Part shown: positions 14,871-62,295 of the stretch, piece after piece | How the letters are laid out: every line of letters starts with the position of its first letter | Numbering within the stretch: the stretch's first letter is position 1 | Program-made: the position numbers and the translations under genes | Notes under the pieces: generated by a model | Told to the model about the DNA's origin: nothing | Databases searched by the model: none | What the model saw: only the letters and a program-made list of their open reading frames with translations | IMG/VR virus record: IMGVR_UViG_3300014911_000001 | Location: 62,001-126,000 of that record | From: a virus | Length of the DNA stretch: 64,000 nt | Reading direction: 5' to 3' (one strand)

Positions 14871-15413
14871 TTAGAATAAACTGAATCCTACATAAAGATC
14901 CCAACCACGATCAAATGATTCATTAGAATTAACGAACTGGCTATTATCGTAGGAAGCCCCGACATAGAAGGTGGGTGATAATATAATAATGCCCTGACAG
15001 AATGATTCAGAAAGAAGAAACGGATTCATAAGCGCCACAATGATTGATAGATCTATACCTACAGACCCAGAAAGACGCATGTTGGTGTAGTCGAAGCCGC
15101 CGCCCCTTCCGTAGCCAAGCCGGCCGCCTAAACGTATGAAGGATAACTCCTTAATAAGTGGTATATCAACATCCATTGATGCAAAAAGACCATTACCAGA
15201 TCCCTTGGGGGTTCTTATGTGTTCATACCCGAGGCCGGCGTAAAGAAGTGGATATGATTCCTCATCATGGTTGAGTAGATATTTGAAGCCCCCGCTCCAG
15301 TCCTTGTTGTAAACATTTTTGTCAATTTCAATATTGATCGGGAGGATATGAGGCAGGGCATTTGATATAGCAAGAGCGGAGAGAATTAATAAAACAGTAA
15401 ATATTTTACGCAT
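14871..15413 (-). CDS. Outer-membrane beta-barrel-like protein with signal peptide, 180 aa
   Basis: A signal peptide (Lys-rich start, hydrophobic to about residue 17, cut near SNALP) is followed by alternating amphipathic strands with many Gly and aromatic residues. The last strand ends YVGFSLF, with a terminal Phe, the mark of proteins inserted in the outer membrane by BamA. It is sized for an 8-strand barrel. Phage-encoded outer-membrane proteins often block superinfection or replace a receptor, which is inferred here. It has its own promoter at 15444-15471. Confidence 0.7.
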   Translation of the reverse strand: MRKIFTVLLILSALAISNALPHILPINIEIDKNVYNKDWSGGFKYLLNHDEESYPLLYAGLGYEHIRTPKGSGNGLFASMDVDIPLIKELSFIRLGGRLGYGRGGGFDYTNMRLSGSVGIDLSIIVALMNPFLLSESFCQGIIILSPTFYVGASYDNSQFVNSNESFDRGWDLYVGFSLF

Positions 15414-18201: not shown

Positions 18202-18813
18202 TCACCTCCTTATTTTTATTATTACATCACCTTGAATTTCAAAGTCAAAGAAACAGTTAGGCGCGCGCTCCTTGAGAACCTTTAAGATATCAATAAATAC
18301 CTGCCTTATTTCCCATTGTGCTGAAGCCGCGCCCCTTAACTCTATCATATGTCTCCATTGACGGAAATTAGCGGTTACAACAATTTGCGATGCACACGCA
18401 TTAGGTAAAACGAATCTCGCATCCTCTTTAGGAATACCTAATGTCAGAAGAACGCTATATAATTTCTGTAAATATCGCATTGTTTCTTCATATAGAAGGC
18501 GGGCTTCCTCATTACCTTCTATTGAAGGAGGTACTATATAAGTGAAGCCGGCCTCCTTCACATATCTTTGCGATCGTTGCGTATAGGAACATAACCTGTG
18601 CCTAACAAGCTGATGAGTTGCTGCACGGGATATATTCTTAATAAGGAAGGTAGCAGATGCATGCTCTAATACTGATAGATGACCCCACTTTATAAGCTTA
18701 CGTATGAGTTCACCAGGTTGACCTTTGGGTTCCGATGCATGTGATACTCTACCAGCCTGCTCTATAAGCTCCTCAGCATTAGGGGTTATTGATAATAATA
18801 TTATATCAGCCAA
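18202..18813 (-). CDS. thyX: Flavin-dependent thymidylate synthase ThyX, 203 aa
   Basis: The ThyX signature RHRxxS appears as RHRLCSYTQRSQRY (residues about 71-84). The upstream HLSVLEHASATF and the later NFRQWRHMIELR are also typical. It makes dTMP from dUMP using methylene-tetrahydrofolate, FAD and NADPH, using dUMP supplied by the dUTPase. The start is TTG at 18813, 5 bases after AAAGGAGG. It has a promoter at 18837-18865. Confidence 0.95.
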   Translation of the reverse strand: MADIILLSITPNAEELIEQAGRVSHASEPKGQPGELIRKLIKWGHLSVLEHASATFLIKNISRAATHQLVRHRLCSYTQRSQRYVKEAGFTYIVPPSIEGNEEARLLYEETMRYLQKLYSVLLTLGIPKEDARFVLPNACASQIVVTANFRQWRHMIELRGAASAQWEIRQVFIDILKVLKERAPNCFFDFEIQGDVIIKIRR

Positions 18814-18836
18814 CTGCTCCTCCTTTTAATGAATAC

Positions 18837-18865
18837 ATTATCATCATCTCTTGCAATCTTGTCAA
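18837..18865 (-). promoter_or_regulatory. Promoter for thyX
   Basis: Leftward TTGACA, a 17-base spacer and GATAAT lie 24 bases upstream of the thyX TTG start. Confidence 0.65.
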
Positions 18866-19074
18866 GATTCTAACAATTCCTCATCAAATATTTTTATTAA
18901 CCGCTGCCTGCAGTCATTCCAGCCACTAAAATAAGCCTGCAATTCTCTCTCTGATTCTGATGGAATGTTTTCTTGCCGTAATCTTGCAAGCACAAAATTT
19001 TTAATGTCTTTAACCAACTCCTTCACAAACCTCTCATAGATAACTCTCTCATAATAATCATGGGATAATAACAT
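18862..19074 (-). CDS. Hypothetical helical protein, 70 aa
   Basis: The ATG at 19074 follows AAAGGAGG by 5 bases. A GTG two codons earlier is less well placed. The protein is charged and helical, with a YFSGWNDCRQRL segment in its second half. Family not recognised. Confidence 0.65.
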   Translation of the reverse strand: MLLSHDYYERVIYERFVKELVKDIKNFVLARLRQENIPSESERELQAYFSGWNDCRQRLIKIFDEELLES

Positions 19075-19097
19075 ATCCACCTCCTTTTTTTCCCACT

Positions 19098-19125
19098 ATA
19101 ATATGCATAGAAGCCTAAATGTCAA
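19098..19125 (-). promoter_or_regulatory. Leftward promoter before 18862-19074
   Basis: TTGACA, a 16-base spacer and TATTAT lie 24 bases upstream of the start. Confidence 0.75.
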
Positions 19126-19127
19126 GG

Positions 19128-19133
19128 TATAAT
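19128..19133 (+). promoter_or_regulatory. -10 box suggesting a leaderless message
   Basis: TATAAT ends 7 bases before the ATG at 19141, and no ribosome binding site is present. Transcription would start at or next to the start codon. The -35 region is weak. Confidence 0.45.
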
Positions 19134-19140
19134 TTCAAAG

Positions 19141-19830
19141 ATGAAACGAATACAACACATACTTTTACTAATAATAGTATTAATAATTATCGCTATAGGA
19201 CATCCCTTCCGTCCATTTTATGTTTTCTTCCAAGAAGGCTATAATGACACAGCATATGTGGACACTACAGATGCATGCATCCCTTGTTCAACATCATATA
19301 ATGTAACGATCTGCACAACGGCTGTCATATTATCGCTACCTATTGACACAACAGACGACACACTATGGCATGGTTACTTATTAAAGCTGTGGATAAAAGA
19401 CACTTCAGGATACACAAGCGATACATTTTATGTGAATGATACATGCTTCAGAACACTATATCAAGTAGCGCCTTGCAACATAGCGCCTACATGTTCATTG
19501 GTATGGGGGTATCATTTCTGGGTCATAAATTTAGATTGCATTAATCTACAATATGGCATCTATATAGGCGATGGTGATAGCATATGTGTCTACATCAGCA
19601 AAGATATGCAACATGGCCAGAAATGCATAGCGATAAATAGCAGCACATCAATACATCAACTAAGAGTGATAGCCGGAGATACAACACCTGTTTACATAAG
19701 TGAATTCCCTGTCATCTCACATCCAGCTTATTCAGATACATACTGGTATGACATACGTGGAAGAAGGACACTACCGTATAGAAGTGGAGTTTATCTACAT
19801 AAAAGACGGGTTATCGTAATAATAAAGTAA
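19141..19830 (+). CDS. Secreted Cys-rich protein with degenerate sorting-type C-terminus, 229 aa
   Basis: A signal peptide covers about residues 1-23. The body shares FQxGYNDTAYVDT, SLVWGYHFWVI-type and DGDSICVYI segments with the product of 19831-20538, and has about ten Cys, probably in disulfides. The C-terminus reads DIRGRRTLPYRSGVYL and ends VIVIIK, resembling the type A sorting domain of type IX secretion. Function unknown; a surface role during infection is likely. It is probably translated from a leaderless message. Confidence 0.65.
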   Translation: MKRIQHILLLIIVLIIIAIGHPFRPFYVFFQEGYNDTAYVDTTDACIPCSTSYNVTICTTAVILSLPIDTTDDTLWHGYLLKLWIKDTSGYTSDTFYVNDTCFRTLYQVAPCNIAPTCSLVWGYHFWVINLDCINLQYGIYIGDGDSICVYISKDMQHGQKCIAINSSTSIHQLRVIAGDTTPVYISEFPVISHPAYSDTYWYDIRGRRTLPYRSGVYLHKRRVIVIIK

Positions 19831-20538
19831 TCATTTGAGGCGTACCTTCACTTTACCATCCTCTATATAAACAGTAGGTAGGGTCCCTTGAAGCCGGCGC
19901 CCTCTAAGATCAAATCTCCCTTTTAGGTAGCGAAGCCGCGGCTTCCCCTTATATTTATCATCCTCTATAATAAGACTACTTGTATCGGGCAGAACAATCC
20001 TCATAATTTGATAAAGCGCTAGATCATCATATGCGATACATTTGCGTCCCCAAATACTGCCCTTCGTTATATAAACGCATAATGAATCGCCATCTGTTAG
20101 ACTGGGAAAAGCACTATCTCCGATGTCAATGATCCAGAGATGATAACCCCAAACAGTACTACATGTTGGAGCAAGATGATCTATACAAGGCTGCACCCTC
20201 CACAAAGGTATAGATGCTGATGGACATGAATGTATGTCGCAGCTATCCCAGATGGTATCAGCAGAGCTATCATAGATGAAAAACCTGAGGGAAAAACCAT
20301 ACCATACATCATCAGTGCTATCTGTATCGGTACCCAATGATGAGATTACCTGTAGTGTACATAGATTGCGATTGAAGGAAGCCGCGCACTTCGAACAGAT
20401 ATCCATCGTATCAACATAAGCTGTATCATTATATCCTAACTGGAATAGAACAAAGAACCACCGAGGCGGCGGAGGTGGGTCAGCAGCAACCAATGATATC
20501 GCGATCGCTAATAGTATGACAATACTAATTTTCTTCAT
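19831..20538 (-). CDS. Secreted Cys-rich paralogue, 235 aa
   Basis: The signal peptide ends near VAADPP. The body aligns by eye with 19141-19830 over its length (FQLGYNDTAYVDT, TCSTVWGYHLWIID, DGDSLCVYITKG). The C-terminus, FDLRGRRLQGTLPTVYI then VKVRLK, again resembles a sorting domain. The two genes converge tail to tail with no gap. The start at 20538 overlaps the upstream gene, and no good ribosome binding site is seen. Confidence 0.65.
   Translation of the reverse strand: MKKISIVILLAIAISLVAADPPPPPRWFFVLFQLGYNDTAYVDTMDICSKCAASFNRNLCTLQVISSLGTDTDSTDDVWYGFSLRFFIYDSSADTIWDSCDIHSCPSASIPLWRVQPCIDHLAPTCSTVWGYHLWIIDIGDSAFPSLTDGDSLCVYITKGSIWGRKCIAYDDLALYQIMRIVLPDTSSLIIEDDKYKGKPRLRYLKGRFDLRGRRLQGTLPTVYIEDGKVKVRLK
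19932..19945. repeat. 14-bp palindrome, copy 3
   Basis: Inside the secreted paralogue gene 19831-20538. Confidence 0.9.
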
Positions 20539-20728
20539 CTTTATCTTTTTTAGATGGCATAAGCAATTTAGCTATAAGTACAATCACACCTACAATTACA
20601 ACACCAATTATGCCAAATGTCCCTATCAGTGCCAATGCATCCATTTCAGGACCTGTGAATGGATCCTGAGCAAAAGCGATGTTAAAGATACCAAGCGCCC
20701 ACAATATGTAATATAGTCTTGCCATCAT
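20525..20728 (-). CDS. Membrane protein with signal peptide, 67 aa
   Basis: An N-terminal signal (cut near NIAFAQD) is followed by a second hydrophobic segment (about residues 34-57) and a Lys/Asp/Glu tail. There is no ribosome binding site, but TATTAT lies just before the start, so the message may be leaderless. It overlaps the start of 19831-20538 by 14 bases. Confidence 0.6.
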   Translation of the reverse strand: MMARLYYILWALGIFNIAFAQDPFTGPEMDALALIGTFGIIGVVIVGVIVLIAKLLMPSKKDKDEEN

Positions 20729-20753
20729 TCAATAATACCTTAATCAAAACCTA

Positions 20754-20781
20754 TTGAAAATTCCCGGAAATACGGTATAAT
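20754..20781 (+). promoter_or_regulatory. Promoter of the glycosyltransferase gene
   Basis: TTGAAA, a 16-base spacer and TATAAT lie 23 bases upstream of the ATG, followed by AAAGGAG. Confidence 0.75.
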
Positions 20782-20804
20782 CAGACCAAAAGAAAGGAGT
20801 ATCT

Positions 20805-22709
20805 ATGATTATAAAAGTCTCACGCAGACAAGACACAAAAACTGTTTCACAAAAGGGCTATCCTATTATAGCGGTAATATCCGGTAATACACACTTTTAC
20901 TCCGGTGGGCATTATTATATGTATGAAATAGCTGTTGCATTATCTGAACTAGGAGCCGAGGTGCATTTCATTACGAATGTGCGTCCAAGACATTTTGAAA
21001 AGGATTTCAAAGATTATGATCTCAGTAAAATTCATTGGCATGTTGACAGAAACTATAAAGCCGACCTACCTCCCTTAGATGCTGTTATTGGTTCTCCTAT
21101 CCATACAGCCCTCATAGCCGTTGATCTTGCGGGCCTACATTCATGCCCTTCAATTATTGTTGTCTATGAAACACCTAACTGGTACGCGGAATATGAGGAG
21201 GATGAACATAAATATATGCCACGAAAACCACCATTTGAGATGTTCAAGCAAGCCTTAATAGAGTGTGATCGTATTATAGCAATAAGCCATGAAGGCGCTA
21301 AATACATCCCTCAATGGGATAGCAGGATTCCACCAGATAAAATTAGTGTTATAAGACCTGCTATAAATCATAAATGTGCTAATAGATATAAAAATAAATC
21401 CGCAAGAGAACGTAGTGTTACATACATAGGTAGATTAGTATTTAACAAGCAATTTTGGGAGCTCTATGATGTTATAATGAATGATCCTGAACCATACGTA
21501 TTTCATGTTGTTACATCAACGATATCAGAAGCCGAGCGCAGAGCACACATGGGAAATGAAAAACATCCTGTCCAGTGGCATCTTAAGGTTGGTGATGATA
21601 AAAAATTCGAGATCCTATCGAAAACATCAGCCTTAATTTTACCAACCAAATTTGAGGGTTACGGTATGCCTCCACAGGAATCATTATATCTGAATACACA
21701 TACAATTGTTATGGATCTACCGGTTTTCCATAATGGGCACGCAATAAAGGATGATGCGCATTTTGTTAAGGACATGAAAGAAATTCCAAGTGTAGTACAC
21801 AAGGTACTTGGTAAGACATGTACACCTAAGGGGCACATACCGACGATGGAAGATATGAAAAGAGAGCTTCTGCAGGTTAAGGAGATACCATTTAAGTGGC
21901 GTTCCGAAGACGATATCCTCATAAGCTTTTCATGCTGCGTCTTTAACAACGCTAAACATATAAGAGAATGCATTGAAGCAATTTATGATCACGCGTATGA
22001 GATAATCATTGTTGAAGGCGCCACCGATTGGTGGGCTAACTACTTTAATAGTCCTACAGGTATTAGCACCGATGGAACACATGAAATAATTATGGACCTT
22101 GTAAAAAATGATAGCAAGGGGATTATAAAATATTATGGTCCCCTGCGTTTCCCTCATAAGGTACAGATGAGGCGTTATGCGGTAAATAAAATTGATAAAG
22201 AAGCTGTGAGAAGCGGGCGCCTCGTCTATTGGATCGTAGATGCTGATGAAATCTATACTGATGAAAGCATTAAAGCGATGAAGCGCGCCATCCTAACGCA
22301 CCAAAAAGGAATTGTTTTTCAACCAACATACAGACATCACTGGATTGATCCACGGTATGTCATAGAAGGCGGGCCATGGAGTGCACCTCATACAAGAGTC
22401 GTCGTGTGGAATAGGAAATACGGCTATCATAAGCGTGATCAATATTATGTACAGAGACATAATGAACCACTAGATGAACAAGGCATAGGGCTTAATATAA
22501 TGAGGCCAAAGTATTATGTAAGCCGCGGCTTAGGTGTATTGGTTCCCGACTGCATTGTTGACCACTATGCATATGATTACAACTTAGAGGCCAAAATGCA
22601 ATTCTATAAAGAACGCGGCGACAATGCATATAAATTAATGGTTGCTGTTATGCAATGGAAGCCTGGCAAACCATTACCAAAAGGTATTACGATCAAGCGC
22701 ATAAATTAA
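20805..22709 (+). CDS. Two-domain glycosyltransferase (GT4-like plus GT2-like), 634 aa
   Basis: Residues about 20-330 look like a GT-B enzyme of family GT4: IAVISGNTHFYSGGHYYMYEIA at the start, RIIAISHEGAKYI and VTYIGRLVFNKQ in the middle, and KFEGYGMPPQESL, the donor-binding E-x7-E region. Residues about 360-600 look like a GT-A enzyme of family GT2, with FSCCVFNNAKHIRECIEAI, GSTDGT-like GISTDGTHEII and the DADEIY metal-binding motif. It is a single gene with its own promoter. It may modify the host surface or phage components. The targets cannot be read from sequence. Confidence 0.85.
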   Translation: MIIKVSRRQDTKTVSQKGYPIIAVISGNTHFYSGGHYYMYEIAVALSELGAEVHFITNVRPRHFEKDFKDYDLSKIHWHVDRNYKADLPPLDAVIGSPIHTALIAVDLAGLHSCPSIIVVYETPNWYAEYEEDEHKYMPRKPPFEMFKQALIECDRIIAISHEGAKYIPQWDSRIPPDKISVIRPAINHKCANRYKNKSARERSVTYIGRLVFNKQFWELYDVIMNDPEPYVFHVVTSTISEAERRAHMGNEKHPVQWHLKVGDDKKFEILSKTSALILPTKFEGYGMPPQESLYLNTHTIVMDLPVFHNGHAIKDDAHFVKDMKEIPSVVHKVLGKTCTPKGHIPTMEDMKRELLQVKEIPFKWRSEDDILISFSCCVFNNAKHIRECIEAIYDHAYEIIIVEGATDWWANYFNSPTGISTDGTHEIIMDLVKNDSKGIIKYYGPLRFPHKVQMRRYAVNKIDKEAVRSGRLVYWIVDADEIYTDESIKAMKRAILTHQKGIVFQPTYRHHWIDPRYVIEGGPWSAPHTRVVVWNRKYGYHKRDQYYVQRHNEPLDEQGIGLNIMRPKYYVSRGLGVLVPDCIVDHYAYDYNLEAKMQFYKERGDNAYKLMVAVMQWKPGKPLPKGITIKRIN

Positions 22710-23104
22710 ACATGCCGTTCAAAATGGGGTACATCCTTGAATGTCTTAAAGTTGCCACCCCATCTATTCTTCTTATTAAGACTCTCCCAGTACTCACCAA
22801 ACGGTTTAATATCATTATAGTCCCATGTTAAAACATAATATCTCCCATCCACAATAACAATCGTCTGCTCATACTTATATTTTTCACCCTCCTGTATCGG
22901 CTTAAAGAAATTAAGGTCAATAGCGAGCCGCTTCAAATGATATGAGTTCATTGTCTTACTGCGTCCTGTTTCCACATATATCCGTTGTGTCTCAGGAGAG
23001 CGCCAGAGCTCTCCCCCTGTAACAATCCAGCCTTTTTCTTCGACATACTTAATCAGTTTCACTACATCCTTCAGAAATTCCCACTGTTCCTTCACTAATG
23101 ACAT
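22706..23104 (-). CDS. Endolysin, M15-type L-alanyl-D-glutamate/D-Ala peptidase, 132 aa
   Basis: The zinc ligands and surroundings of the M15 (VanY/phage T5 lysin) fold are present: SPETQRIYVETGRSKTMNSYH, then LAIDLNFF, and near the end VPHFE. These give the H, D, H ligands and the catalytic Glu context, and a GGxF element precedes the last His. It cleaves peptide cross-links of peptidoglycan at lysis. It overlaps the upstream gene by 56 bases and the convergent glycosyltransferase by 4. Confidence 0.85.
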   Translation of the reverse strand: MSLVKEQWEFLKDVVKLIKYVEEKGWIVTGGELWRSPETQRIYVETGRSKTMNSYHLKRLAIDLNFFKPIQEGEKYKYEQTIVIVDGRYYVLTWDYNDIKPFGEYWESLNKKNRWGGNFKTFKDVPHFERHV

Positions 23105-23381
23105 CTTCCTGAACCTCCTCTTCTTTTGGTTTCTCCTTTGACCCTTGGAAAATAAGACGATGCCCTTCGTCTTTGCTTATTAATGCGATAGTGCCTCCAA
23201 AGTCAATCTTACCAATATAATTTTCATCTTCATATTCAATATATACCCATCCAGTATGCTGCCCACTGGTGTCTACAATTTTACCATCCTCTTCGATATA
23301 GAATGCTGGATCACCACGTTGTGTAATAAGACACGCTTTATAGTTACCATAATCATAATAAAATTTGTGGAAGAATAACAT
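23049..23381 (-). CDS. Hypothetical protein, 110 aa
   Basis: The ATG at 23381 follows AAGGAGG by 5 bases. The protein is beta-rich with an acidic, Glu- and Lys-rich C-terminal third that overlaps the start of the endolysin gene. Family not recognised. A link to lysis is suggested only by position. Confidence 0.6.
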   Translation of the reverse strand: MLFFHKFYYDYGNYKACLITQRGDPAFYIEEDGKIVDTSGQHTGWVYIEYEDENYIGKIDFGGTIALISKDEGHRLIFQGSKEKPKEEEVQEDVISEGTVGISEGCSETD

Positions 23382-23391
23382 ATGCACCTCC

Positions 23392-24105
23392 TTATGTTAT
23401 AATTCCTTGTTTCACCTTTGACAAATATTCTAATAAATATCGTTCTTTTTCCCCATCTCTATTTTCTTTTGTTATTATGGGCCAGCCGCGCTTCTTACAG
23501 CTATTATTAATCCATGAGCGACGGTGGAAAATAGTAAGCCCGCGGCTTCTCATCTCATTAATAGCCTGCCTACTAAATCCACCACTGTATTTATATCCAA
23601 ACAACTCAACGAACATTCTCCGGAATTCATCATAGACATATCGTGCAATGATACTTGCCGCCGCTATTGAATAATGCGTCTCATCACCACCATAAATGCC
23701 AAATTGGGGAACACTTAATCCATCAATATCATAATAATCCACGAATACAACCGCATTACCATTATCCTTAGTGATTCGATCTACCATATTCTTAATAACA
23801 TCTAATTCGTGCTTACGATAATTGCCACCACCATCTACAATATGGAAATCACAGTAATCAACATAAACAGGAAACCTTTCCATAAGTGATAATGCCACCT
23901 TCTTGCGTTCCTTTACCGTAAGTACCTTGCAATCAGCAACAGGTATTAATGGATACTTAATAGGCGGAACAATTTTAACTGCACCCACAATAATAGGTTG
24001 CAGAGAAGAAAAGACATTTACCTCATCAAATCCAATGATAGTCATACCTTCATCAAGGTATTGTTTCTCATCAGGATCAAAATCTGTTAACCAATGCTTT
24101 TCCAT
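23392..24105 (-). CDS. rnhB: Ribonuclease HII, 237 aa
   Basis: RNase HII motifs are in order: IGFDEVNV (standing for GxDEaG), VADCKVLTVKERKK (for DSKKL), VVFVDYYDIDG, and SIAAASIIARYVYDE. These supply the DE-D-D metal ligands. It removes RNA primers or single ribonucleotides from DNA. The N-terminal 20 residues are an extra segment. Its start overlaps the stop of the resolvase gene by one base. Confidence 0.88.
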   Translation of the reverse strand: MEKHWLTDFDPDEKQYLDEGMTIIGFDEVNVFSSLQPIIVGAVKIVPPIKYPLIPVADCKVLTVKERKKVALSLMERFPVYVDYCDFHIVDGGGNYRKHELDVIKNMVDRITKDNGNAVVFVDYYDIDGLSVPQFGIYGGDETHYSIAAASIIARYVYDEFRRMFVELFGYKYSGGFSRQAINEMRSRGLTIFHRRSWINNSCKKRGWPIITKENRDGEKERYLLEYLSKVKQGIIT

Positions 24106-24572
24106 TATTCCTCATAGACATTTTGTGTTGCCCAATACCCTAAACAAATAGCATCCGCTATATTATGGTTATCTATCTCCTGTCCTGCCAGCTCAGATGC
24201 AAGCCTCATAGAATAACGCTTGCGATCAATACGTTTCGTCTGTGACGAACATTGCAATATATTTGTCTGCCATGTCTGGGGTTGCACAACCACAGGAATC
24301 CATCCATTACACTCAAAGATTGTTGCAATAGAAGCCCGCACCTCAACCAATCTTTCAAAAGTTAAAACATTCCTCTTACTTGCCCGGGGATGAAGCCACT
24401 GACCCTCTATAACAAGCACCCGCGTACCTTTATCATATGTTGTGGATAGCTTGTGCATTTTATCCAGAAATTCTTCATCTCTATCAATCAAACCCCAGCT
24501 TTTCAAATGCCCATTCTCCCATATGCTATAACCAATGCGTTTCGTATCGGGATCAATAGCTATAATAATCAT
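24105..24572 (-). CDS. RuvC-like Holliday junction resolvase, 155 aa
   Basis: The fold markers are IIAIDPDTKRIGYSIW (first Asp), VLVIEGQW (Glu), and NHNIADAICLGYWA (final Asp with His). Length matches phage and bacterial RuvC. It cuts Holliday junctions or branched DNA before packaging. The gene overlaps both neighbours by a few bases, in a recA-like, ruvC, rnhB block. Confidence 0.88.
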   Translation of the reverse strand: MIIIAIDPDTKRIGYSIWENGHLKSWGLIDRDEEFLDKMHKLSTTYDKGTRVLVIEGQWLHPRASKRNVLTFERLVEVRASIATIFECNGWIPVVVQPQTWQTNILQCSSQTKRIDRKRYSMRLASELAGQEIDNHNIADAICLGYWATQNVYEE

Positions 24573-25504
24573 TTCTTAAGCCTGCTTTCTATGAATTCCT
24601 TTAGGTTATCTTTATTCTGGTAAATTTCTAATGGGTAAATACCATTCTCAAGCAACCGATCAATCGAATATTTCTTACCATCAATCTTTATGGAATTACC
24701 TTCCATAGGTATACCAAAATCTGAAGCCGGCGCCAAATCAGACCACATATCAATCAAACCAATATTCGGCTCAACCAACAAAATGTGATTCTTGCCCTCA
24801 ATGATACTTGATGTTTTAGTTTTGACAATCGTAATCTTCACTGTGTCAAACTTGTATTTACCACTTATACGGTGGAAAAATAGTTTCAAATGATAAAGAT
24901 GCTTTAACAAGTAAGGACCCGGCTCCCTATAACTCATATAAGCTTTGGTATATCTAGTAACCTGTCCACCTATGAGATCCCTTATCTGGTTTATAATAAT
25001 CGCAAGAATTTCCTTTTCACCTATTGCTGGGGCCCATACTTTAAGCTCGCGGCTTAGTAAGCGCGCCAGCTCTGATACCTTCTGCTCCTGCGGCTTTGCT
25101 CTCTTCTCAAATTCAGTACTCATAGCAACAGCACTATCAAAGACAAACCCAACAATATCATCCAGATGTTTGGCATAAACATCACGTATATCTTCAAATA
25201 TCTCCTCAGCTGTTGAACCACGTATAACAATCATTTCATCAAGCTTGCAACCTTGGATCTCAGCCCATCTCCCATCAAACATGCGCTCTGCATCAACATA
25301 GACAGTAAGCCCGCCCTTCTTCTGTTCCTGCAGAAGACCTACTAAAGCAAGAGCCAATGTTGTCTTACCAGTAGAAGGACCACCCCAAAATCCTATGAAC
25401 CTGCCTAACGGTATGCCATATAACGCTTTCGCCATAAAGGGGAAACGGGCTGATAAATCTAAGTACTTAGTACTTGATAGTTCAGTCGCTTTTATTATTG
25501 CCAT
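24569..25504 (-). CDS. RecA/UvsX-like recombinase, 311 aa
   Basis: Walker A GGPSTGKT is at residues 41-48, VYVDAERMFD follows, Walker B is IVGFVFDSAVA, and AIIINQIRD is the L2-proximal motif. Its organisation and size match RecA-family recombinases of phages. It forms filaments on single-stranded DNA and exchanges strands. It is directly followed by the resolvase gene. Confidence 0.9.
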   Translation of the reverse strand: MAIIKATELSSTKYLDLSARFPFMAKALYGIPLGRFIGFWGGPSTGKTTLALALVGLLQEQKKGGLTVYVDAERMFDGRWAEIQGCKLDEMIVIRGSTAEEIFEDIRDVYAKHLDDIVGFVFDSAVAMSTEFEKRAKPQEQKVSELARLLSRELKVWAPAIGEKEILAIIINQIRDLIGGQVTRYTKAYMSYREPGPYLLKHLYHLKLFFHRISGKYKFDTVKITIVKTKTSSIIEGKNHILLVEPNIGLIDMWSDLAPASDFGIPMEGNSIKIDGKKYSIDRLLENGIYPLEIYQNKDNLKEFIESRLKK

Positions 25505-25519
25505 CTTAAACCCCCTTTA

Positions 25520-27895
25520 TCAATCACACTTCCCACCATACCCACACTTTGGACATGGGTTATTACAATCAAACGCATATTCAACACCTCTAGTTATAAT
25601 TTTATAACCACACATGGGGCATACATTTATTATAGCATCATCGGGTACCTCACCATCTGGTAGAGCACCATTATACATATTTGACGCTTCCTGCACAGCC
25701 TTCTTGCGTTGCTCATATTCCTCCTCAGGTGTAATACCACGCAGGAAATATTTTAGTGCTAATCCCCAGAATCCCACAGGAGATGCAATCTTGTGTCCTT
25801 TATACCATGTCATACCATCAGCAGATTTTATGCTTGCAAACTCATTAATAATACGATCAACGACACGATGATATAATTCTTCATCTCCAAGGGCATAAAT
25901 CTGCTTAAGGAATATCGATGTGATCACATCTAGAGCAATAATAAAATCCGAATGTGGTATATCCTTACTACCCAAGAAGATTTCCAGTGGTTTACCCTCA
26001 ACACCCGCTACGATAAGATAATAGTTTTGGTCCCTATAAGGGAACTTATAAGCCTTTGCATCAAGTGTATCAGGCCTCTTCCAATCAGATAAAAAGAGGA
26101 ACTTGCTCTTCTTCTTACCACTCCTTATTACAGCCTGCCGGCTTCCTTCTCTGAACACAGTTATACCCTTTACCCCATTTTTCCAAGCATCAATAAAGAA
26201 GCGCGACAGATCATCCGTTGTCCATTGAGCTGGTATCGTATATGTATTGCTAATAGCATTATCGATATGTTTCTGTATTGCCGCATGGATGGCTAATTTA
26301 TCATAAGGATCAACATCATGCGCTGTAACCATATATGGTGCATTCACATCATAACCATCAGTATTTTCTACCCATTCATATATAGGTTGCTTAAATTTCA
26401 TCATCTTATTGAAGCTCTCGCTCCACCGTTCGATCTCAAAATAAAAAATTGGCTCAAATGCTGCATTAACCCCTGTCAATAATGATATCGACCCCGTCGG
26501 CGGCACAGTTAACAACGCAACATTCCTTATACCATGTTCAGCTACCTGCATCATAAAGTCCTTATTAAAATGCTTTTTGATAAATAGCGCCTGCTCAACA
26601 TAATCCTCGTATGAACCATCCTTTTTAAACTGTTCAACAGCAGGCGCAGGGCCTAACTGCTGGGCGAGCTTAACAGATTCATCATATGCTATATTACATA
26701 TAAATTCAGCTATGCGCTCGGCTTCCCTAACAGACTTAAGGGTACCATATTTAATGCGCTTAATAATAAAATAATCAGCCAGTCCCATAAACCCTATACC
26801 AACCCGCCTCTCAAATTGAGCCTGCTCCTTTACCTTATCTATAGGATAATATGCCCTGTCAATAATAGCATCACCTAATCTAACGGCAAATCGCACCGTT
26901 TGTTCCAACTTTTTCCAATCCATACGGCGGGTAGACAGATCCACATGAGCAACAAGATTGACGCTTAAGAGGTTACAAACGGAATAAGCCGGCAGCATCT
27001 GTTCCCCACACGGATTGCTTGTAGCAATCTTTGCATAGCCTGATGAATTTGATGTGCGTTCGACATTGTCTATAAAAATAAGCCCCGGCTCCGCTGACTC
27101 CCATGCAGTCCTTACAATCGTATCCCATAACTTCTTCGCCCTTATACTACGCTGGACCTTCACAACATCATTTTTGAATGATAGAGTGAAGTCATCATCA
27201 GAAATCATAGCATCCATAAACTCATCTGTTACCTTAACAGATATGTTAGCATAGCGTACCTGAAGCCGGCTTAATATATACCTCACAAAATCGGCCTCCT
27301 CATCATCAACATTCAGAAGAGTAAAATAACTCTCCATCGCATTGTTTAAATCACACTTCATTTTTACGAATCGCTCGATATCAGGATGTGTTATGTCAAG
27401 ACTTATCAACAGAGCTCCACGACGCCCGCTCTGACCAACCAATCCCGTAACAGCAGAATATAACTCAGCCCAGCTCCATGCACCCGTAGAGACCTTCGCA
27501 GATCCTGTATGAACCTTTGCACCCTCAGGACGTAGCGTTGATATATCTATACCACATCCACCACCTGATTTATAAACGATTGCCAATTCCTTCGCCGTAT
27601 CAAAAATGCCCTCCATGCTATCCTCTGGTGATGCTATGACATAACAGTTAAATGGCGTTATACGTTGTTCAACACTCCTTCCAGCCGCATACAAAACACG
27701 ACCGCCAGGAACAAGCCGCCAGCTTAAGTTACCATCATCATCAAAAAAGATGTTATCTGTCTCTATAGGATATGGTTTAAGGAAATAATCATATACACGC
27801 TGAAAGATTGACTCGATTGGTTCATCAGGTTCTGCCTGATATTTTTTGGCTATCGTATCTCTTATGGTCTTATACTCATCAGATATTGGAATCAT
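25520..27895 (-). CDS. nrdJ: Class II (adenosylcobalamin-dependent) ribonucleotide reductase, 791 aa
   Basis: The core shows FNCYVIASPEDSM (first active-site Cys), SGGGCGIDIS, SNPCGEQMLPAYSVCN with the radical Cys, and LTVPPTGSISLL. The C-terminus, CPKCGYGGKCD, carries the redox Cys and a zinc-binding pair before it. No partner small subunit is near, as expected for class II. It reduces ribonucleotides using coenzyme B12. It uses no oxygen, so it suits an anaerobic or microaerobic host. It is uninterrupted by an intein. Confidence 0.93.
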   Translation of the reverse strand: MIPISDEYKTIRDTIAKKYQAEPDEPIESIFQRVYDYFLKPYPIETDNIFFDDDGNLSWRLVPGGRVLYAAGRSVEQRITPFNCYVIASPEDSMEGIFDTAKELAIVYKSGGGCGIDISTLRPEGAKVHTGSAKVSTGAWSWAELYSAVTGLVGQSGRRGALLISLDITHPDIERFVKMKCDLNNAMESYFTLLNVDDEEADFVRYILSRLQVRYANISVKVTDEFMDAMISDDDFTLSFKNDVVKVQRSIRAKKLWDTIVRTAWESAEPGLIFIDNVERTSNSSGYAKIATSNPCGEQMLPAYSVCNLLSVNLVAHVDLSTRRMDWKKLEQTVRFAVRLGDAIIDRAYYPIDKVKEQAQFERRVGIGFMGLADYFIIKRIKYGTLKSVREAERIAEFICNIAYDESVKLAQQLGPAPAVEQFKKDGSYEDYVEQALFIKKHFNKDFMMQVAEHGIRNVALLTVPPTGSISLLTGVNAAFEPIFYFEIERWSESFNKMMKFKQPIYEWVENTDGYDVNAPYMVTAHDVDPYDKLAIHAAIQKHIDNAISNTYTIPAQWTTDDLSRFFIDAWKNGVKGITVFREGSRQAVIRSGKKKSKFLFLSDWKRPDTLDAKAYKFPYRDQNYYLIVAGVEGKPLEIFLGSKDIPHSDFIIALDVITSIFLKQIYALGDEELYHRVVDRIINEFASIKSADGMTWYKGHKIASPVGFWGLALKYFLRGITPEEEYEQRKKAVQEASNMYNGALPDGEVPDDAIINVCPMCGYKIITRGVEYAFDCNNPCPKCGYGGKCD

Positions 27896-37717: not shown

Positions 37718-38439
37718 CAACGCAGATAATAAAAAGTTTACGCTCCCAAGTTTTTATACCGCCGTCGTTGCAGGAAATGGAGCATATTGCTACACGTATG
37801 CGACATTTTACACAGTTGAAGCAGGCACGTAGCGCGTTCCAGCGGGCGTGGAGTTTCGCACGCAAGACTGGTTTAGGAGCTGAGTATATTGCAGCAGCGC
37901 GCCCATATATTTTAGGTAAGTATTGGAAAGCTGTAACTGGAATATCAGGTGGTTATAAAGGTAAGGTATGGGCTGAGGAGGTTTTTAAAACGCTGAGTAC
38001 GCACTATGCTAGGTTTACAAGGGCGCCATTAACCACAACTATGGGTGTGCGTCAGGGATTGCGTACACCATTACTTGTATCGGAGTCGATTTTAGGTAAG
38101 CGAGTTATATCATTGAAATCTGTTGCTGGTGCTGCAGCGGCTTCCCGTGCTGCTGCACAGGCTGGTGCTATAGGCGCTGCAAAGGGAGTAACAAATAGGG
38201 TAATGAGGAATCGTTTATTGAAGCGTATTGCCCAGGGAACATTTAAGTTTGCACAGACCAAAACAGGCGCATTTACAGCTGCTGTGCTCGGCGGGCTTAT
38301 AGCATTAACAATTGCTGGTGCAAGTTATGTAAGAAGGAATCCATCAGAGGTTGCTTTGGCCCAGCTTAGGCAGCGTAGGGCCACACGTTATCCAAGGGCG
38401 CCTTCTGGTTTGGTCTTTGCCCTACATGCAACAAGATAA
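37714..38439 (+). CDS. Basic structural-type protein D, 241 aa
   Basis: Basic, with an Ala-rich helix (residues about 130-155) and a hydrophobic segment near residues 190-208 (AVLGGLIALTIAGASYV) that could enter membranes. An ejection or internal-head protein is possible. It ends two bases before the terminase start. Confidence 0.62.
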   Translation: MTTQIIKSLRSQVFIPPSLQEMEHIATRMRHFTQLKQARSAFQRAWSFARKTGLGAEYIAAARPYILGKYWKAVTGISGGYKGKVWAEEVFKTLSTHYARFTRAPLTTTMGVRQGLRTPLLVSESILGKRVISLKSVAGAAAASRAAAQAGAIGAAKGVTNRVMRNRLLKRIAQGTFKFAQTKTGAFTAAVLGGLIALTIAGASYVRRNPSEVALAQLRQRRATRYPRAPSGLVFALHATR

Positions 38440-38440
38440 T

Positions 38441-40897
38441 ATGGAAGGGAAAAGGTTATCATTAAAAGAGCTAAGTGCTGATGAACTTTTGCGCATACGC
38501 AAATCCGCTTCTTACTTTGTTGAATTATTCCTGCGTGATCCAACCGACCCGCGCCGGCCTCTAAAACTCTACGATTACCAGCGTGAGGTTTTGGATTATC
38601 CCGGTAAGAAGGTTGTTATAAGAGGTGGCCGTGGTGTCAGTAAAACCACGATGATGGCATGGAAGGCATTACACCGTGCCTTCACGATACCAAGGCATGT
38701 TATTATTTATTTAGCACAATCGGAGACGATGCTGCTCAGATTTTTTACTGATTACCTTGACCGCTTCATTACAGATTCACCTCTAAGTAAATCAAAGGTT
38801 GCCTACCGCAAGCAGCCTCAGTATGAGATTGTATTGAGTAATGAGTCAAAAATTTTGGGGTTTGTTGGTAATTCCACGCAGACAATCAGAGGCCCGCGGG
38901 CTGGTACCATTCTTATTGATGAATGTTTTCACGGTATGACGAAGGTCTTAACACAGCGCGGGCTTATTCCCATCAGTCGTGTTAGGGATGGTGATTATGT
39001 TCTTGATGCTGATAGCAAATGGGTGCGTGTTATCCGTGCTGCGATGACGGGTGTTAAAGAAATGTGGGTTATTGAGCTACCTATATCAGATGAAAAATTG
39101 GTTGTTACACCTAATCATCCTGTTTTAACAAAGGATTCAGGATTTCAGCCTCTTAATATAGTTGATGAGATACCGATTAGTTGTCGTTATTATGAGCCTT
39201 TTGAGTATCCTAAGGAAGCGGCGCTGGCGCTTATTTATGCACGATATATAAGCGAGCGTGAATCGCTTGTATTTAATAATGAAGGTGTGCGGCTTATTAT
39301 ATCTGGTTATCCCAGATTCCGCACATTTTATGAGCGTTTCACGGCGGGCAGACATATTAATCCTGTGCTTATTGAGAAGGATTTTATAGACGGAAAAATT
39401 GATCAGCGTCTTTTTGTATATTATCTAGCTGCATTTGTTAATAGATTTCCTAAGATTGTCATCGATTATCTGACGGGGTTGGGTTATAAGGTTATAGCGG
39501 GTTCGCTGGCTAGTGATGATGTACCTAGATATGAAAAGGAGATAGGTTTTCCATTTTTTGAGTCAGGATGGTCAACGATTGTAAAATTAGCTGATAAGTT
39601 GAACCGTGATCCTGTTGAGTTATATAAGGAAATGAATTGGTACAATACAGGCATATTTGTTCCTTATAAGAAGAAATCTACCATTAAGGCGGCGGCTTAT
39701 AACCTTACTACCGAATCGGGGACTTATTGTGTCTTTATTGGTGGATTCCGCATTCCTGTTCACAATTGTGATTATATACCTGAGCGTAAGTTTGTAGAGG
39801 TATTTGGTACAACAATGTCAATGGAGGATGTTGTTATATGGTTATCATCCACACCCAGTCCTAAGAGAGGTTACTTTTGGCGTGCGTGTAATGACGAACG
39901 CATGGGATTCAAGGAGTTTCATTTACCAAGTTGGTTGCATCCGACATGGACGTGGATGAAGGATGCTGAGAGGTTGGGCATACCTATCGAAGAGACAACA
40001 GAGTATCAAACTCGTGTTGAGTTTCCTAACCAAGCTGACTGGTTGCGTGAAATAGCCGCTGAGTTTGTCGATCTTGAGGAGAGTGCTATACCATCAAAAT
40101 ATATAGATGAAGCATTCCAGCATTATGACGGTGAGGTGAGCAGGAAGCGCGGCTTCCGCATCCTTGGTATCGATTGGAATGCGATGGCAGCAGGTGTTGT
40201 TATGGTGTTAGTAGAATACGATAATAAAAATAATGTATTTAGGGTTATCCATTCAGAAACGATTTCTAATGTTGAATATCATCACCAGAAGGCATTGCAA
40301 CGTATTGTTGAGATGGTTAAACAATATCGCATTGATGCTATTGCAGCTGATTGGGGTTATGGAGAAAGTGATATACAGCAGCTTCAGCTTATTGGTAGAG
40401 CTAAAGGGATTCGCGCGCTTACCGACATCATGGCCGTAAAGTTTAATGAAAAGATGAAGATACCGCTTTTTTCGGGTGGTTATGATGAATGCTATGCTAA
40501 GGAATACCTTATGCGGTTGGTCAGGAAGTTATTTGAGATGGGTGCTATCATGCTGCCTCCATCGGAGGATGAAAGGTTGCCTGAAAATTACGCTGATGCT
40601 ACGAATATGTTGGGATACCAGTTGCGTAATTTGCGTGCTAAGGTAACGGGGACCGGTCACCTTACCTATGTTGTTGAACCAGACCATAAATTTGCTGCAT
40701 TTTTGGCTGCTGTCTATGGATTTTATAGGACATTCCAACCGCGTATAGATCCGGTGCAGGGGCTTATTATTTATAATGATTTAGAACGGCAAGAACAGAA
40801 GTTGGATCATGTTCCTAGTATAACATTACAGCCGAAGAAGACACAGCGGTTTGTCCATAGAGTTACAAATAGGTATAAGCCAATAAGAACTGTATGA
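38441..40897 (+). CDS. Terminase large subunit with intein, 818 aa before splicing
   Basis: The N-terminal ATPase has Walker A GGRGVSKT at residues 62-69 and Walker B TILIDE ending at residue 161. An intein (residues 162-442) interrupts the protein right after Walker B. Splicing would give ILIDECDYIPE. The C-terminal nuclease has RILGIDWNAMAAG (first Asp), a middle IAADWGYGESD and a later Asp/Glu region. It cuts and pumps DNA into the prohead. The ATG at 38441 follows the upstream stop by one base. Confidence 0.92.
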   Translation: MEGKRLSLKELSADELLRIRKSASYFVELFLRDPTDPRRPLKLYDYQREVLDYPGKKVVIRGGRGVSKTTMMAWKALHRAFTIPRHVIIYLAQSETMLLRFFTDYLDRFITDSPLSKSKVAYRKQPQYEIVLSNESKILGFVGNSTQTIRGPRAGTILIDECFHGMTKVLTQRGLIPISRVRDGDYVLDADSKWVRVIRAAMTGVKEMWVIELPISDEKLVVTPNHPVLTKDSGFQPLNIVDEIPISCRYYEPFEYPKEAALALIYARYISERESLVFNNEGVRLIISGYPRFRTFYERFTAGRHINPVLIEKDFIDGKIDQRLFVYYLAAFVNRFPKIVIDYLTGLGYKVIAGSLASDDVPRYEKEIGFPFFESGWSTIVKLADKLNRDPVELYKEMNWYNTGIFVPYKKKSTIKAAAYNLTTESGTYCVFIGGFRIPVHNCDYIPERKFVEVFGTTMSMEDVVIWLSSTPSPKRGYFWRACNDERMGFKEFHLPSWLHPTWTWMKDAERLGIPIEETTEYQTRVEFPNQADWLREIAAEFVDLEESAIPSKYIDEAFQHYDGEVSRKRGFRILGIDWNAMAAGVVMVLVEYDNKNNVFRVIHSETISNVEYHHQKALQRIVEMVKQYRIDAIAADWGYGESDIQQLQLIGRAKGIRALTDIMAVKFNEKMKIPLFSGGYDECYAKEYLMRLVRKLFEMGAIMLPPSEDERLPENYADATNMLGYQLRNLRAKVTGTGHLTYVVEPDHKFAAFLAAVYGFYRTFQPRIDPVQGLIIYNDLERQEQKLDHVPSITLQPKKTQRFVHRVTNRYKPIRTV
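38924..39766 (+). other. Intein in terminase large subunit, 281 aa
   Basis: It starts with Cys (CFHGMTKVLT, block A), contains VVTPNHPVLT (block B with TxxH) and ends GGFRIPVHN, followed by Cys of the extein (blocks F and G). These are the residues of a class 1 self-splicing intein. The middle has degenerate LAGLIDADG-like helices (ALALIYARYISE and LFVYYLAAFVNR), so the homing nuclease is probably decayed or divergent. Confidence 0.92.
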
Positions 40898-57227: not shown

Positions 57228-57252
57228 GATTGGTGGAAGGAATATCAAGTAG

Positions 57253-57286
57253 AAGGCCCTCCGTATGAAGCGGGGGGCCTTTTTGT
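57253..57286 (+). terminator. Rho-independent terminator after the sheath gene
   Basis: AAGGCCCTCC pairs with GGGGGGCCTT around an 8-base loop, and TTTTTGTTTT follows. It is the clearest rightward terminator in the window and would lower transcription of the genes beyond. Confidence 0.82.
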
Positions 57287-57305: not shown

Positions 57306-57539
57306 ATGAAAGATGTGAAGATATACATTGATGATGGTATTTTATATGTGGAATTTCATGAGTTCTACGATCGGGCCGATATATTGATTTATGATGTGAA
57401 GGGCCGGCTTATTCATGAAGGGACTGCGGCCGGCTTAAGCGTCTATACATATGACATGTCTCGTTATGCAAGTGGTCCTTACATTGTTGTTATTTTGGTT
57501 AGTGGTAGAAAATATAGTAAGGTAGTCACATTGCATTAG
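57306..57539 (+). CDS. Stand-alone type IX secretion sorting-domain-like protein, 77 aa
   Basis: Nearly the whole protein matches the type A C-terminal sorting domain: beta strands, then LIYDVKGRLIHEG (the 'vyDl.Gr.v' strand), YTYDMSRYASGPYIVVIL ('dls.l.sGvYiv') and SKVVTLH at the end. Normally this is the last 70-80 residues of a large secreted protein and directs export across the outer membrane in Bacteroidota and relatives. Here it stands alone, without signal peptide, between sheath and tube genes. The ATG at 57306 lacks a good ribosome binding site. Confidence 0.7.
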   Translation: MKDVKIYIDDGILYVEFHEFYDRADILIYDVKGRLIHEGTAAGLSVYTYDMSRYASGPYIVVILVSGRKYSKVVTLH

Positions 57540-61617: not shown

Positions 61618-62295
61618 ATGGATCCCAAAGAGTATAAACAGCAGCATGGTGTTGATATTTTTGCGGTTGGTTGTAATGTTCTGAAAAATACTTATAAGGC
61701 ATATTTTCCTATTATGTCTGTTGCTGATCTTACGACTGATGTTATGTATAATGACCCTGCGCGGGTTCATCTATTAAATGTTGTCCGTAACCTTGTTGAA
61801 AAGATAAGTTTAGGAACGATGACTGATGATGATTTGGTTGCTGTCATGGGTGGTTGCATTCATCTCGAAAAGAATATGCAACCTATTGATCCGATGTCTG
61901 TAGAGAATGCTATAGCTAAGCTCTTAGCTGAACGGTGGATTACTGCGATGGGCTTCTTTGATACACCGCGGGTTTATGTTGCTGAGGTGGATGGGCAAAC
62001 ATGCGATGTTGTTGAAACTGTTTATGCAGGTAAGGTTTACAAAATTTATCTAAAGCCTATATCAGGTGACAATGATCCTCGTATTGAGCATGTGTTGAAG
62101 GTCTTGGGTAGAGAGTATACGATTGATCAGACATATGATGTATTTAGAAGCTCGGTTGTGAAGGTTGAAGCCGCGCCCTTTGGGCAGCTATCGTTTGAGG
62201 ATGTTGAACTTAATGATAAAGTGCTGTTTGCAAGTGCTGTTATGGCGTGGATTGAGAATACAGGTAGCATTGAATATGATTACGAAATTATATAA
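61618..62295 (+). CDS. Putative tail assembly chaperone 1, 225 aa
   Basis: A mixed-fold protein with no recognised motif. It is immediately followed, with a TAATG overlap, by a small protein and then the tape-measure-like gene, which is the usual position of the two tail assembly chaperones. No slippery heptamer is evident at the junction, so a separate start rather than frameshifting is likely. Confidence 0.55.
   Translation: MDPKEYKQQHGVDIFAVGCNVLKNTYKAYFPIMSVADLTTDVMYNDPARVHLLNVVRNLVEKISLGTMTDDDLVAVMGGCIHLEKNMQPIDPMSVENAIAKLLAERWITAMGFFDTPRVYVAEVDGQTCDVVETVYAGKVYKIYLKPISGDNDPRIEHVLKVLGREYTIDQTYDVFRSSVVKVEAAPFGQLSFEDVELNDKVLFASAVMAWIENTGSIEYDYEII

Follow-up and report, generated by a model that had tools for sequence, protein, structure and literature searches.

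We propose that two convergent genes of this large uncultured phage, which we call A and B, are accessory (moron) genes encoding secreted, disulphide-rich proteins. By its short C-terminal tail A, and probably the ancestor of B, would be cargo for the type IX secretion system (T9SS) of the host, a route by which some Gram-negative bacteria bring proteins to their surface, and would be destined for display on the host surface. On balance this is the reading that we favour. The window, that is the whole stretch of 64,000 nucleotides that was analysed, runs from base 62001 to base 126000 of a virus record 175,796 bases long. The features of the locus are listed below.

19141-19830, + strand: paralogue A, an ORF of 229 aa with a predicted signal peptide, a Cys-rich domain and a short T9SS-like tail
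19738-19827, + strand: A tail, with motif B YDIRGRR, motif D GVY and motif E, the basic C-terminus VIVIIK
19831-20538, - strand: paralogue B, an ORF of 235 aa with a predicted signal peptide, a Cys-rich domain and a degenerate short T9SS-like tail
19834-19917, - strand: B tail, FDLRGRR...TVYIEDGKVKVRLK, 15th among 712 tails in the block-motif test described below
20525-20728, - strand: an ORF for a 67-aa protein directly upstream of B, overlapping the start of B by 14 bp

A and B meet tail to tail with their stop codons abutting, exactly at the coordinates given in an earlier sequence-only reading of this DNA, and there is no significant hairpin between them. That reading took the two proteins for paralogues on the strength of the segments NDTAYVDT, VWGYH and DGDS; these are present in both, and alignment reveals homology over the full length (38% identity, 142 bits, E 1e-46). 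The signal peptides and Cys-rich character that it described were also borne out. In A the signal peptide is predicted to span approximately residues 1-20, with K/R in the n-region, a hydrophobicity h of 4.2 and cleavage between AIG and HPF. In B a K/R n-region and a strongly hydrophobic stretch precede a predicted site between VAA and DPP. Both proteins have nine Cys downstream of residue 25, which presumably form disulphides. The 67-aa protein has a signal peptide (cleavage between AFA and Q), spans the membrane once, ends in a charged stretch and is kept in three related contigs (L001-L003); compared with Pfam, NCBIfam and PHROGs it matched no family above a curated cutoff. Its layout resembles that of filamentous-phage major coat proteins or of a holin.

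In the mechanism that we envisage, the predicted signal peptides would send A and B through Sec to the periplasm. A short C-terminal signal, consisting of the motif B loop, the GxY of motif D and the basic motif E, would then make A cargo for the host T9SS, and the ancestor of B was probably cargo by virtue of the same signal. This would leave the Cys-rich domain exposed on the outside of the infected cell; its most likely role there, in our opinion, would be to alter surface properties or to block other phages.

The evidence for export by this route lies in the tails. Both proteins end in the pattern D[IL]RGRR...VY...K, as the sequence-only reading had noticed, and in A the motifs B, D and E follow in order at the C-terminus. 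Alignment shows the motif-D Gly of B replaced by Thr or Asn (TVY/NVY) in all B orthologues, and export of B is doubtful for that reason; B may be exported inefficiently or kept in the periplasm. Since A and B are paralogues, their tails do not represent independent events. We lean towards the A tail acting as a T9SS export signal and hold the same view of the B tail with less confidence.

Tails as short as these have precedents. In Prevotella intermedia, 48 of the 80 predicted cargo proteins carry C-terminal domains (CTDs) of 43-55 residues, in which motifs B and D stand only 1-6 residues apart. Cargo with such short CTDs was shown to be cleaved and glycosylated, and in this species short CTDs are real export signals (PMC11969387). 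Such CTDs fall below the size of the seven-stranded domain described by library models (PMC11969387). For GFP to be secreted and attached, the one part of HBP35 that was absolutely required was its last 22 residues (PMC11969387). RgpB depends on MNGRR, its motif-B loop, and on the glycine of that loop (PMC11285876).

Because published CTDs can be short, we scored three motif blocks with free spacing. The weights were learned from 27 genuine CTDs encoded by Bacteroidota plasmids and by named phages, sequences independent of those under study. Among the 712 ORF tails of these phages, the highest score (30.3) went to L007, a distant homologue of A and B in another phage, followed by a stand-alone CTD of the present phage (27.1) and by A (17.4), with B at 6.3; genuine CTDs scored 13.9-47.7 when left out one at a time. 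Shuffled sequences scored as high in 0 of 3000 cases for L007 and for the stand-alone CTD, one of 3000 for A and 21 of 3000 for B, counts that are somewhat optimistic because we settled the spacing cut-offs and the definition of the blocks with the tails already in view. A long-CTD HMM built here did not separate the tails from shuffles, 126 of 2000 being as good as A and 279 of 2000 as good as B.

Library models gave a different answer. The sorting domain claimed for A and B in the sequence-only reading was not recovered by the CTD models of Pfam and NCBIfam, with either the whole proteins or the isolated tails as queries, and L007 fared no differently. Against the Pfam, NCBIfam and PHROG models at large, neither A nor B gave a match beyond chance level; a weak hit of A to NF011802 (16.5 bits, cutoff 257) was disregarded. 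Searches with tblastn of A against phages and of the L007 tail against plasmids and phages returned nothing. The interpretation offered in that reading is thus partly supported: its T9SS-type tail stands on the motif-level test, on the textbook tail of L007 and on a full-length CTD fold elsewhere in the phage, and lacks a library-model match and, in B, the Gly of GxY.

L007, found with the A/B alignment as query, is a 41% homologue and lies on a 24-kb contig from metagenome 3300005098. Its carrier is a phage unrelated to that of the window, with a PBSX-type terminase and different genes; over the stretch compared, only one other gene is common to the two (E 1e-5). The homologue is a lone + strand gene amid - strand genes, the arrangement that one would expect for a moron. 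It terminates in GLFDLSGRKVEKPIRSGIYIKDGKKIIIIK, which, judged from sequence, is more clearly T9SS-like than the tails of A and B and amounts to a textbook short version.

It is possible, though in our judgement rather unlikely, that A and B are ordinary Sec-exported phage proteins of the periplasm or associated with the outer membrane, in which the tail is the last β-hairpin of a domain and resembles a CTD by convergence. The want of a profile match for A and B agrees with this, as does a low-confidence model that places the tail as a β-hairpin; neither a PDB sequence search nor a fold search with the model of B (pLDDT 52) gave anything reliable. Against convergence, the L007 score falls within the leave-one-out range of genuine CTDs, and the tail is conserved where the linker is not: among A, B and L007 the tails share 36-43% identity, compared with 18-32% for the preceding linker, which also varies in length.

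Orthologues of A and B are present with the same neighbours in three more viral contigs, those of A (L001, L002 and L003) at 95-98% identity and those of B at 90-93%. By the Nei-Gojobori method, A compared with L002 and L003 gives dS 0.20-0.24, dN 0.02 and dN/dS of about 0.09-0.12, and B compared with L004 and L005 gives dS 0.38-0.55, dN 0.04-0.05 and dN/dS of about 0.1. Purifying selection on both genes is strong (dN/dS about 0.09-0.13), and the constraint on the tails equals that on the remaining protein. That the B tail is under purifying selection despite the absent motif-D Gly fits a convergent hairpin. One copy of B (L001:9105-9545) has lost about 88 residues through an in-frame deletion and retains the signal peptide and tail. 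Other Cys-rich secreted proteins of the same phage show no relationship to A and B. Outside the window, at G000 18362-26976 (L011/L012), four large Cys-rich signal-peptide proteins lie in a run (331-1027 aa, 10-23 Cys), the first two of which share a 70-residue segment; none of the four matched a family.

We considered whether the tails might be relics, carried by genes captured from a T9SS host and now functioning in the periplasm of a host that does not export them by this system. We judge this improbable. The A tail is intact, with a dN of 0.00-0.02 across orthologues, and the tail has been retained in two unrelated phages. The loss of the motif-D Gly in B, on the other hand, is what a relic would lead one to expect, and two clues to the host point the same way and also tell against the export favoured here. 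Firstly, Gln occupies position +1 of the predicted signal-peptidase site in only about three of the phage's 13 secreted proteins, well under the average of 71% in Bacteroidetes but more than the share in most Chlorobi, which is below 9% (PMC5837995); this does not point to a typical Bacteroidetes host. Secondly, the nearest named relative of the virion module, at 23-40% identity and with the same gene order, is the distantly related Moorella phage MTATph1, whose host is Gram-positive. In this phage the large terminase gene (38351-40897, + strand) carries a Hint/Vint (intein-like) insertion at residues ~192-272.

Three small signal-peptide proteins (14871-15413 on the - strand, L011:2553-3026 and L011:3571-4059) resemble outer-membrane barrels by eye, which suggests a diderm host and speaks for the proposed export; two of them end in Phe, and comparison with Pfam gave no family that would confirm the barrels. 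No match came from scans of genome contigs, whether the A/B family or TnpB served as query. For the TnpB (IS200/IS605) gene of the phage (12808-14052, - strand) no close relative was found in the genome collection, and its plasmid matches, all below 60% identity and about 33-36% among the best listed, are spread over many phyla and therefore offer no host clue.

A further possibility is that A and B are components of the virion or bind the receptor, rather than being proteins of the host surface. We regard this as very improbable given that the genes lie in a non-structural neighbourhood, which includes PhoH-like, ThyX-like and glycosyltransferase genes and is a long way from the virion module, and that L007 is a lone gene on the opposite strand. 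The phage does encode other large fibre-like proteins with signal peptides, a point in favour of a virion role: a tandem pair of 651 aa, 67% identical, at G000 171270-175193 (L017). Signal peptides are unusual for phage fibres.

The full-length CTD fold mentioned above is encoded in the tail operon, where two features are relevant.

57251-57283, + strand: a strong intrinsic-terminator-like hairpin, with a 14-pair stem and a T run, between the sheath gene and the stand-alone CTD gene
57306-57539, + strand: a stand-alone, full-length T9SS CTD/DUF3244 fold of 77 aa, flanked by the gene for the tail sheath and the next gene of the tail module

The product exceeds the Pfam cutoff for DUF3244 (31.5 bits, cutoff 25) and lies just under those for Por_Secre_tail (23.6 bits, cutoff 27) and TIGR04183 (18.2, cutoff 23). 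Its predicted structure (pLDDT 92) is a seven-stranded Ig-like β-sandwich with CTD motifs, which Foldseek aligned with TM scores of 0.79 to the CTDs of the T9SS substrates NucA and RemA, 0.80 to the mirolase CTD and 0.82-0.89 to the DUF3244 structures 3sd2, 4g5a and 3d33. No signal peptide was detected, the N-terminus MKDVKIYIDDG having no hydrophobic stretch, and the product therefore cannot itself be ordinary T9SS cargo. Fusion to the sheath by readthrough is ruled out by the intervening stop codon and the 14-pair terminator. Two further contigs have the gene, conserved at 90-100%; at the equivalent position of the Moorella phage no gene is annotated. One might imagine a twofold use of the host type IX pathway, in which the short-tailed Cys-rich proteins are exported to the surface and the stand-alone CTD either engages the CTD-binding surface machinery of the host from a place on the virion or jams that machinery as a decoy; we rate this conjoined scheme as a long shot.

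How do A, B and the stand-alone CTD relate to known systems? With Por_Secre_tail (PF18962/TIGR04183) the A/B family shares motif B YDxxGR, motif D GxY and a basic motif E, in that order at the extreme C-terminus of proteins with a signal peptide. It differs in that the tails are of about 28 residues, have neither the PNP start nor the upper sheet and fall under every model cutoff, and in that B is without the motif-D Gly. The compressed spacing between motifs B and D, the extra basic residues and the predicted three-stranded end recall the short CTDs of P. intermedia (PMC11969387); those extend 40-55 residues from the cleavage site and are reported for that species only. Cryophage also has genes with T9SS-type sorting domains at the end (PMC7468147), but its cargo consists of glycoside hydrolases and a PA14-domain protein, whereas here we find a duplicated, nameless Cys-rich family with short tails together with a stand-alone CTD. 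The latter resembles DUF3244 (PF11589) in score and fold and departs from it in having no signal peptide and in being encoded in a phage tail operon.

Phage-encoded T9SS cargo has been hardly described so far, the known cases being Cryophage (PMC7468147) and the cluster 2 crAss-BACON phages (PMC6949934); such cargo also occurs in huge phages of public records. The principle is not new. What is new is a nameless Cys-rich cargo family, short-tailed and shared by two unrelated phages, along with a CTD that stands alone in a virion operon. From the sequences, surface export of A and B is plausible, and the phage probably decorates or otherwise modifies the surface of the infected host. If confirmed, A and B would represent a compact cargo family in two unrelated phages of one habitat, and their pairing, with motif D intact in one paralogue and degraded in the other, would provide a built-in comparison. 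The phage would also offer a stand-alone CTD within a virion operon and, in the tail of about 28 residues, a natural example of a minimal export signal, which would bear on the question of how small a T9SS signal can be.
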